In this document: piece by piece, positions 7,037 to 12,861 of the stretch | Numbering within the stretch: the first letter of the stretch is position 1 | How the letters are laid out: every line of letters begins with the position of its first letter | Assembly: GCA_019187225.1 (NCBI GenBank) | Contig: JABAQQ010000005.1 | Coordinates: 172,060-236,059 of the forward strand | Length of the DNA stretch: 64,000 bases | Origin: Saprospiraceae bacterium | GTDB taxonomy: Bacteria > Bacteroidota > Bacteroidia > Chitinophagales > Saprospiraceae | Reading direction: 5' to 3' | Program-made: the position numbers and the translations under genes | The notes under the pieces: model-generated | Database searches by the model: none | Seen by the model: only the letters and a program-made list of their open reading frames with translations | What the model was told of the DNA's origin: nothing

Positions 7037-7130
7037 AGCGCTTGTCTTTCAAGTCATTGCACATTGAAACTTGGCATTCAAACTTTCCCCGCAGCCCATA
7101 TTCCACACATCTTCAATACATTTGCCTTCA

Positions 7131-7214
7131 CCAACAACCAAGAACCAACAACCAAGAACCAACAACCAACAACCAATAACCAACAACCAAGAACCAACAA
7201 CCAAGAACCAACAA
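7131..7214 (+). repeat. (CCAANAA) heptanucleotide array, 12 units
   Basis: Twelve consecutive 7-base units of the form CCAACAA, CCAAGAA or CCAATAA end 10 bases before the ATG at 7225. The same family precedes clpX and tig in the same orientation relative to the gene. Confidence 0.95.
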
Positions 7215-7224
7215 CCATCTGTCC

Positions 7225-9917
7225 ATGCCGCTCGCCCAACCTTTGCCCGACCTTCGCCGCCAGTTGCAGGAAATCCTCGCGGAAGACCTTGCCGCCGCGC
7301 TCAACGCGCTCAAGGAACTCCTGCCCGAAGGCTCGGAAAAGCACCGCACCGTGCTGGAACTGCGCGCCCGCTTCAACGAAGCCAACAAGCAAAATTTTCG
7401 CGGCGTCATCTCCCCCGAGCAATTGCAACTCATTTATAATCAGATCCGCAGCGCCGTTTTCGACCTGCTCGAATCGCTCGAAGAGGGCGATTTTGAAGTG
7501 GCTGTGAAAGAGGGGGGAGCCGCCTCCGCTAAAGCAACGGCGGCTAAACATGGCAGCGTCCTCTACCGTGTGCCCCACCGGATGCCGCTGCGCAAACCCA
7601 CCATCTGCACCGTGCGCGTCGCCCTCGACGAAGAGGCCATCCTCGAAGACATCGTGCTCGACGCGGAGGTGCGCCTCCGCCCGCGCGTAGAGGTGTCGGA
7701 CATGATGAAGGCCGAACTGCTCGACCCCGAAGGAGATGTGTTCGCCATTCGCCCCCTGAGCGAGGCCGAACAACTGGTGCGCGACACGGGCTATACCCAA
7801 TGGCTGTTCAGCGTGACGCCGCGCGTGGAAGGAGAGCACCAGTTGCTCGTCAAAGTCTCCATGATGGAGTTCAACGAGAAAATCGGCAAGTACGTCCCCC
7901 GCGAAGTATCCATTTTGGAAACCGTCACCATCGTCACCGAGACGGCCGTCGCCGACAGCGACGAAACGCCGCTCAAATCCACCGGCGATCGTTTCACGCT
8001 CGGCCCCGATGCGTCGCGCGGTATCGGCGAAGAGCCGCCGGCAGCAGTCGTGCCGTCCGCGCCTGCGCTCAATATCCCCCGGCCATCTACCATTTACACG
8101 CCGCCTCAGCCGTCCACCGTCGGCCGTCCCTCTTCAGTGCCGCGCGGCCTGCGCACCGTCGCTTTTTTCCTTGCTTTTCTCCTGGTTGGAAGTACCGCAA
8201 CATGGGCTTTCACGCCACCACCCACGCGTGACTGGTGGGTCGTCCGCCTGAAAGACAGCGCCGAAGCCTACGCCGGTTATATTGAAAAATACAAAGACAC
8301 CGACGCAACGCAGCATTTGGAAAAGGCTTATTTCCGGAAAGCCGACAAAACCGATGCCCTGGCAGATTTGCGCGAATACCAGCGCGAATTCCCGCAGGGA
8401 CAATTTCGCGAGCAAGTGACGGAAAAAGTAGTTATGCTGGAAATCAAGACTTTAAACGACATCCGGCAACAACCCGACGCAGGAAAAATACTCCGGTTCG
8501 CCCAGGATTTCCCTGAAAGCGAACGCCTGCCCGCGCTCAGAGACGTGGTCACTGACCGCGCCGACCTGCTGCCCGCACTTGAAAAAGCTTATGTCGCCTC
8601 CATCCGGGCACAGGCCAGCCCCCGAAAAGTGGAGGCCTTTCTGAACGATTTTCCGAAAAGCGAGCGCCTGCCCGAAGTGGCTCAGGTTTTGGAAGCCGAG
8701 CCCGAAGTGCGCCGTCAGGTGCAGCCGAAATTAGACAGCATCATTGTCCGGAAAGTGGAAAATGCCGCCAGCGCCGCCGAAGTAAAAGCCATTTTGCCCG
8801 TACTCGAAAGCGCGGGCAGCAGCGAAAGCGCGAAAAAAGTAGAGCAGGTGGTAGCCCAAAAGCCGCAACTTAAAAAACAAGTGCTGCCGCAGGTACAGCA
8901 GGCCGTCAGGCGGGTGCAGCAACGCGAAGAAATAAACCGCCAACGCACCGCCGAAGAAGCGGCTGAAAAAGCCCGCCTCGAAGAACTCCGCCGCCGCGCC
9001 CGGGATGAAAAAGACGCCGCCCAACGCGCCCGTTTGGAAAAAGAAGCCGCCGAAGAAGCCGAACGCCAGCGCCTGAAAAAAGAAAAACGCAAGCGCATCG
9101 AAGCCGAAGCCCGCCGGGATACCGACGGCGACGGCGTACCTGACAAAGACGACAAATGCCCCAACGAAAAAGGCGACGCCGCCAACAACGGCTGCCCGCC
9201 GCCCAAAAGCAGAAAATCCGGTCTCGAAATGGTGCCCGTAAAAGGCGGCACCTTCACGATGGGATGCCAGAACGGCCGCGACAAAGACTGTTAAAGCCGG
9301 CCCATACCGTCACCCTCACCGGCTTCCTGATCGGCAAATACGAAGTGACCCAGGCCGACTGGCGCGAAGTGATGGGCGCAGACCCGCCCGAACTCTACAA
9401 CAAAGGCTGCGACGACTGCCCGGTGGAAAATGTCTCCTGGAACGAGATGCAGGAATTTATCAAGACCCTGAACAAGGTGACAACCGGCCGTAAAACCTAC
9501 CGCCTGCCCACCGAAGCCGAGTGGGAATACGCCGCCCGCGGCGGCCCGAAAAGCGAAGGATATATTTACTCCGGCAGCAATGAGGCGGGCAAAGTGGCCT
9601 GGTATCACGACAATTACAAAACCGGCAACACTTTCGGCGCCCGGAAAAGCACCCGCCCCGTCGGGACGAAAGTTCCCAACGAACTGGGGCTGCACGACAT
9701 GAGCGGGAATGTGTACGAATGGTGCAGCGACTGGAAGGGCGAATATCCGGCAGACGCGCAAGTGAACCCAACTGGCCCGAAATCAGGCTCCAACCGCATC
9801 CTTCGCGGCGGGTCGTGGAACTACAGCCCGCAGTACGTACGGGCAGCGCTCCGCTACTACCTCGCGCCCGGCGATCGCTACTACAGTATCGGTTTCCGCC
9901 TTGCCAGGACGAATTAA
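7225..9917 (+). pseudogene. EAD-coiled-coil-FGE/C-type-lectin protein, frameshifted; DGR-type variable protein
   Basis: One gene interrupted by a frameshift: 7225-9294 (frame 1) stops just after MVPVKGGTFTMGCQ-NGRDKDC, and the protein continues in another frame from KPAHTVTLTGF to 9917. Domains: an effector-associated-domain-like helical bundle (residues 1-90); a beta-rich domain (about 110-250); a linker; one membrane helix (about 308-328); helical TPR/Tol-like repeats (340-540); a charged coiled coil (550-630); a calcium-type repeat DTDGDGVPDKDDKCP (about 632-646); and an FGE-sulfatase/C-type-lectin domain (about 668 to end) with EVTQADW, PTEAEWEYAARGG, GNVYEWCSDW and RILRGGSW. A loss of 10 bases (or 3n+1) of an Asp-rich YDDE-like stretch would explain the break. 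The last 30 codons have DGR variable-repeat character. The FGE catalytic cysteines are not evident, so a binding rather than enzymatic role is expected. It could be a sequencing error, a true pseudogene or phase variation. Confidence 0.8.
9816..9905 (+). other. candidate DGR variable repeat (VR)
   Basis: After the GGSW motif the codons alternate between fixed residues and NNY codons: TAC, AGC, TAC, CTC, TAC TAC CTC, GGC GAT, TAC TAC AGT, ending at IGFRLA. Each of these is what adenine-specific mutagenesis of an AAC or AAT codon would give, and they occupy the positions that vary in C-type-lectin DGR targets. The position at the extreme 3' end of an FGE-type gene is typical. No template repeat or reverse transcriptase is visible in the window, so any retroelement would act from elsewhere. 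Confidence 0.55.
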
Positions 9918-12642: not shown

Positions 12643-12763
12643 GGTTGTTAGTTATTGGTTATTGGTTATTGGTTATTGGTTATTGGTTATTGGTTATTGG
12701 TTATTGGTTATTGGTTATTGGTTATTGGTTGTTGGTTATTGGTTGTTGGTTGTTAGTTATTGG
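12643..12763 (-). repeat. (CCAAYAA) heptanucleotide array before clpX
   Basis: About 17 units of TTATTGG/TTGTTGG on the plus strand, which read CCAATAA/CCAACAA towards clpX, end within a few bases of the clpX ATG (12640). The clpX leader must include or follow this array. Confidence 0.95.
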
Positions 12764-12782
12764 GAGCATAAAGGTATGCAAT

Positions 12783-12828
12783 AAACAAAAAACACCCGGA
12801 GAAATGCGAATGTTTCGCATCTCCGGGT
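12783..12828 (-). terminator. rho-independent terminator of clpP
   Basis: On the minus strand ACCCGGAGATGCGAA (12828-12814) pairs with 12810-12794 around a TGT loop with one bulged base. A T-rich tract, GTTTTTTGTTT, follows at 12793-12783. It ends clpP transcription before the clpX leader. Confidence 0.8.
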
Positions 12829-12861
12829 ATCCTGAAAATTTCTAATTTCCAATTTCCAATT

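Follow-up and report, generated by a model that had tools for sequence, protein, structure and literature searches.

The closest described systems are the DGR-diversified FGE/C-type-lectin conflict sensors of multicellular bacteria, as they appear in the excerpts of PMC10907252, PMC8195603 and PMC7159879 used here. In excerpts of two of these papers, FGE domains have been proposed as invasion sensors (PMC8195603; PMC10907252). DGR targets separated from a complete retroelement have likewise been described: excerpts report remote targets in cyanobacteria (PMC7517822), remnants of targets in Treponema denticola isolates that have no complete DGR (PMC4891356) and, in PB-PSB1, a DGR 7 for which a matching template is lacking (PMC10907252). 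Remote and remnant DGR targets are thus already on record, and the gene tail analyzed here adds one more case.

The window, that is the whole 64,000-nucleotide stretch of DNA analyzed, corresponds to bases 172060-236059 of contig C7 in an assembled genome of 7.18 Mb in 73 contigs. As far as those excerpts go, the window gene has in common with the conflict sensors a C-terminal FGE domain with a hypervariable 3' end, an EAD adaptor and a genome containing DGRs together with many EAD fusions. Unlike them, it has no cognate template, no adjacent reverse transcriptase and no STAND or vWA domain by Pfam, and its frame is broken. With the remote and remnant targets it shares an FGE tail far from a DGR core and the lack of a complete cognate system. 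Several of those targets are reported in the excerpts as matched to a template or to a foreign-strain template, whereas the window tail matched none and is assigned through the codon signature of a group of relatives.

The features of the gene are listed in the table. The second frame matches FGE-sulfatase over its residues 38-251 (PF03781, E 1.3e-48). Two sister-species homologues (875 and 886 aa) carry EAD11 and FGE within a single frame, which argues that the window gene is broken where its first frame ends. The closest solved sequence relative of the window FGE is Treponema variable protein 1 (PDB 2y3c, E 1.5e-32), a likeness drawn from sequence comparison, and the alignment runs through the variable tail. 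The PF03781 match, the position of the tail and this alignment place the variable stretch at the 3' end of the C-type-lectin/FGE domain. The sequence-only reading had located it correctly, since TGG at 9816 is followed by 24 codons and then GGT TTC CGC. EAD11 is found at 26 places in the same genome (L337-L348 and others), 24 of them over the cut-off. Ten EAD11 proteins were scanned, and SIR2_2 was found in two, iSTAND in one and a TIR_2 match below its cut-off in one. CARDB is also among the partners in these ten. Short-period repeats are visible in window translations at about 7090-7230 and 12700-12850 (NNQEPTTKNQQP and YWLLVIG runs); repeats of this type adjoin the EAD11-FGE gene and occur elsewhere.

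Table. Features of the EAD11-FGE gene, in window positions.
Feature	Position	Strand	Remarks
Gene, first frame, 689 aa	7225..9294	+	ORF list; EAD11, long middle part, start of FGE
EAD11 effector-associated domain	7252..7482	+	PF19964, E 1.6e-13, first-frame residues 10-86
Second frame, 253 aa as listed	9156..9917	+	remaining FGE-sulfatase domain and variable tail
Frame break	9285..9300	+	first frame ends, FGE domain resumes in a different frame
First-frame stop	9292-9294	+	inside FGE domain
Variable-region-like core, TGG to CGC of GFR, 28 codons	9816..9899	+	
12 V codons, all NNY	9819..9887	+	
V codon starts, first six of 12	9819, 9822, 9825, 9834, 9849, 9855	+	
V codon starts, last six of 12	9858, 9861, 9873, 9879, 9882, 9885	+	
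Constant end IGFRLARTN and stop	9888..9917	+	GFRLART ending common to a group of relatives

We defined variable (V) sites from templates only, as the 12 positions that carry Asn in over half of the 28 template-like tails, and fixed sites as the nine positions with Asn in at most 15% of template tails. The criterion for a template was its Asn content (8 or more of 13 sites; 7 or more in own-template matching), not adjacency to a reverse transcriptase. In the window tail all 12 V codons are NNY, compared with 3 of 9 template-fixed codons (Fisher p = 0.0015), and gene-wide codon use (0.55 NNY) would give 12/12 with a chance of 7e-4. The NNY codons at DGR-like spacings that had been proposed from the letters are therefore present, but alone they weigh little. 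Conditioned on the residues of the tail, of which 6 Tyr, 1 Asn and 1 Asp are always NNY, the probability of an all-NNY set is 0.15, and 12/12 is also scored by 51 of 132 counted non-template tails, the window included. The accompanying argument that each codon can be reached from AAC/AAT by adenine mutagenesis has no evidential weight, because it holds for any NNY codon. Within the window gene the NNY signal is suggestive and no proof. Tyr fills 6 of the 12 V sites, more than in true variable regions (0.158; P = 0.006) or in the group of relatives without the window (0.237; P = 0.043), which points to selection following, or replacing, random mutagenesis.

One alternative dispenses with a retroelement: the ligand face of the FGE/C-type-lectin domain would have been shaped by ordinary diversifying selection, since binding loops favor Tyr, Asn, Asp, Ser and Gly, which use NNY codons. 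The Tyr excess over true variable regions, the probability of 0.15 and the missing cognate template all favor it. The evidence against it comes from relatives of the window tail among the 42 genomes of the genus that we compared, own genome counted in. The counts cover tails in which exactly 24 residues separate W from GFR, which excludes tails with insertions or deletions; the C7 target (aligned apart) and a short G009 tail also stand outside the counts. The tails were taken from part of the FGE matches in the genus, and all counts refer to those tails rather than to genus totals.

A group of relatives, chosen by this feature, ends like the window tail in GFRLART plus one residue. Among the first ten tails of the group, the window tail being one, all 63 of 63 degenerate residues at 13 V sites use NNY, compared with 36/87 fixed-site and 447/714 upstream codons (41-63% elsewhere in the same genes). 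Protein-level selection is blind to the third bases of degenerate codons, and this excess therefore counts against selection as the sole cause. When the window tail is compared with 13 GFRLART tails (omitting G044, a group member with its own template), V codons altered at base 1 or 2 switch third-base class in only 5 of 130 cases, against 23/47 for fixed-site and 409/893 for upstream codons; these pooled comparisons share the window and common ancestry and are not independent of one another. Third bases kept while V bases 1 and 2 vary are a feature seen across the GFRLART relatives. The tails of G006 and G048, which belong to different species, differ at 0/42 backbone positions, 15/26 V base-1/2 positions and 0/13 V third bases, the same pattern as in pairs whose template is known; no template was seen in either genome. 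Unmatched tail pairs inside G048, G024 and G053 show a similar pattern. Selection on the protein predicts neither the frozen third bases nor V codons scrambled on an identical backbone in tails of two species, and we regard selection without a retroelement as unlikely. The argument for a DGR is carried by the frozen third bases and shared backbones of the relatives and not by the window tail alone, and the NNY signal is strong only once these relatives are pooled with it.

The FGE tails of G007 and G009 are conserved across species (1/42 and 0/26 differences) and non-DGR-like, so that not every tail is diversified. A FastTree phylogeny built from 124 FGE domains stripped of their tails places the window domain in a clade of five (support 0.954), the other members being a template-matched target of G009, a sister species, and three unmatched tails. 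At L254 (G047 C354), L274 (G053 C22) and L267 (G022 C20), FGE genes stand in tandem arrays; their tails differ and their backbones are similar.

The gene had been read as diversified by a retroelement located outside the window, and DGR-type reverse transcriptases do exist there in the same genome. RVT_1 matches lie at three places, of which two, on C7 and C21, are DGRs, each with a reverse transcriptase, an Avd gene above the NCBIfam cut-off (~104 and 98 bits), an Asn-rich (AAC-rich) template and diversified FGE targets. The C21 targets are nSTAND1-FGE and TIR-nSTAND1-FGE proteins by Pfam, whose tails differ from the C21 template at 20/31 and 19/31 A and at 1/89 and 2/89 non-A positions. The C7 template lies ~40 kb upstream of the window tail on the same contig, and its target, an FGE-ended frame of 1475 aa, differs from it at 30/39 A and 4/93 non-A positions with one 3-base insertion. 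Between the C7 template and target lies a gene-less variable copy (L021 10333-10488, minus strand, C7:142392-142547) that differs from the template at 25/37 A and 0/83 non-A positions. Its 5' flank is of template type and its 3' flank of target-gene type, as if a unit of ~436 bases had been duplicated through template/target exchange. The third reverse transcriptase, on C36 (L002 1330-2355, 342 aa), scores best against retron-type models; its top PADLOC models are RT-Protease_XI and RT-TIR_XII.

The near-identical template that the sequence-only reading expected in the genome did not appear. In DNA searches with the tail and in template-protein searches of the own assembled genome, we found no template identical to the tail bar adenines. 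The DNA search (E <= 10) returned 17 places, the tail itself included; apart from itself, two fell below E 1e-4, both at the C21 DGR, where query bases 7-45, the upstream constant part, are 87% identical to the template region. The template-protein search returned 20 places, which included both DGR templates and, on C16, an Asn-rich FGE tail. Considered as a template, the C16 tail fits worse, with 27/53 non-A differences, and none of the three reverse transcriptases is its neighbor. It is the end of an FGE gene (C16:81319-81420, minus strand; L025/L058), nearly pure Asn (NNNNNNC...NNNN), without a GFR ending or a nearby reverse transcriptase. A degenerate FGE end was also seen on contig C5.

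We then considered whether one of the two visible DGRs wrote the window tail. Both look complete and diversify FGE genes, and the 87% match to the C21 template region speaks for that element. The differences are, however, not adenine-specific: over 120 bases the window tail departs from the C21 template at 16/31 A and 25/89 non-A positions and from the C7 template at 22/37 A and 33/83 non-A positions (19/59 and 21/51 non-A in the 84-base core), whereas non-A differences in true targets number 1/89 and 2/89 for C21, and 0/83 (copy) and 4/93 (gene) for C7. A similar separation is seen among the sampled tails of the genus. Of 132 non-template tails, 70 come from genomes with a template seen; the minimum number of non-A differences from an own template is 0-4 for 27 of these and 11-36 for 43, with none between, and the window tail belongs to the 43. 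The closest of 26 templates from any genome still differs from it at 14/59 non-A core positions. Membership in the unmatched class and the lack of a fitting template elsewhere argue that neither visible DGR wrote the window tail, a possibility now close to refuted.

Template-like searches of the 42 genus genomes (limit E 1e-9) listed no template with the GFRLART backbone. Further searches had the window tail and not a template as query, and so test only weakly whether a template exists: the 51 pattern matches in viral contigs included no relative, phage records gave at most 48% identity among the best 10 of 17, and plasmids a top match of 60% in Haliscomenobacter hydrossis among the best 10 of 140. 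No Asn-rich tail was present within two 40 kb stretches of H. hydrossis. On its plasmid pHALHY01 (L350 13304-36208) genes for CHAT, a MoxR ATPase, a large FGE, a caspase-family protein and two NACHT proteins follow consecutively; tails at this locus score 12/12 and 11/12 NNY, with no Asn-rich tail in 40 kb.

The proposal of a retroelement outside the window therefore holds in part. DGRs elsewhere in the genome, their adenine-diversified FGE targets, the codon signature and the FGE clade (0.954) agree with it; the absence of a fitting template, and the mismatch of both own templates at non-A bases, do not. Since the search of the assembly revealed no matching master copy, the likeliest origin of the tail is a diversifying element of a known kind that left this variant behind. 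We consider it probable that DGR-type mutagenesis, working from a cognate template not in the assembly, produced the window tail and left the EAD11-FGE sensor with an orphan variable region.

Targets remote from their template are real in this genus. In G009, a genome of 7 contigs, a tail (C1:377257-377832, L232) differs from a template on a separate contig (C2:522261-522380) at 20/23 A and 0/61 non-A positions; in G020, a tail on C333 differs from a template on C106 at 20/31 A and 0/53 non-A positions. Such unlinked targets would also suit the view that the window tail is being diversified today in trans, its template being missing from the assembly or bin because it lies on an unbinned contig, a mobile element or in a strain variant. 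The C7 and C21 elements show that such systems are present in this genome, and excerpts of PMC10907252 report unmatched variable regions with an intact locus in other cells. On the other hand, the genome is rated 100% complete in its 73 contigs, a template with the group backbone was seen in 0 of the 42 genomes, and the window gene is frame-broken. Ongoing diversification in trans is, in our judgment, distinctly unlikely.

The sequence relatives of this genus include Saprospiraceae records. Of its 42 genomes, 22 contain a relative of the C21 reverse transcriptase (E <= 1e-10; the weakest may be of other kinds), and Avd is above cut-off in 10. Eighty tails lack an own template but retain 7 or more of the 10 consensus backbone residues; among codons for degenerate residues at their V sites, 356/419 are NNY, like the 110/130 of template-matched tails; 24 tails with fewer consensus residues give 78/118, near background. 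For at least one member of the set of 80 (G047 L276), further sampling brought a matching template, and the set contains repeats, the L161 tail being equal to that of L081; the L162 tail equals that of L257, which is in the 17-tail class. The base-1/2 composition at V sites of the high-NNY unmatched tails matches that of true variable regions, and the low-NNY tails are not far off, so that composition is weak evidence for a DGR. Apart from the 27 tails matched to a template, the full codon signature is found in 48 unmatched tails and in most of the 14-member GFRLART group.

For an orphan variable region of this kind, we propose the following history and function. An ancestral form of the sensor, or whatever supplied its 3' end, would have been diversified by DGR-type adenine mutagenesis from an AAY-rich template, and the window gene itself would have passed through diversification, as its codons and those of its relatives suggest. 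The template and its cognate reverse transcriptase would later have been lost or left unassembled, and the tail kept. The gene is now presumably static, perhaps dead. The FGE face would display the randomized residues to a ligand, and effectors bearing the same adaptor would be recruited through EAD11.

Taken by itself, the window gene is of modest consequence, since it adds to a known class a member that is frame-broken and lacks a template. Orphan targets are already in print, and the part worth following is the genus-wide surplus of template-less variable tails. One possible reading, which we offer tentatively, is that FGE sensors of this genus, their tails made by DGRs, become fixed, pass between species and persist as a static, inherited repertoire after the mutator has gone, or that the mutator resides on an element that is not assembled. 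If so, retroelement-made receptors would outlive their mutator, or the mutator would ride an element that escapes assembly. A template-free test, in which third bases are frozen and bases 1 and 2 scrambled, can spot DGR products without the master copy. Hypervariable sensor tails outnumber the visible templates in this genus, making it a place to ask about a lasting immune repertoire made by retroelements.
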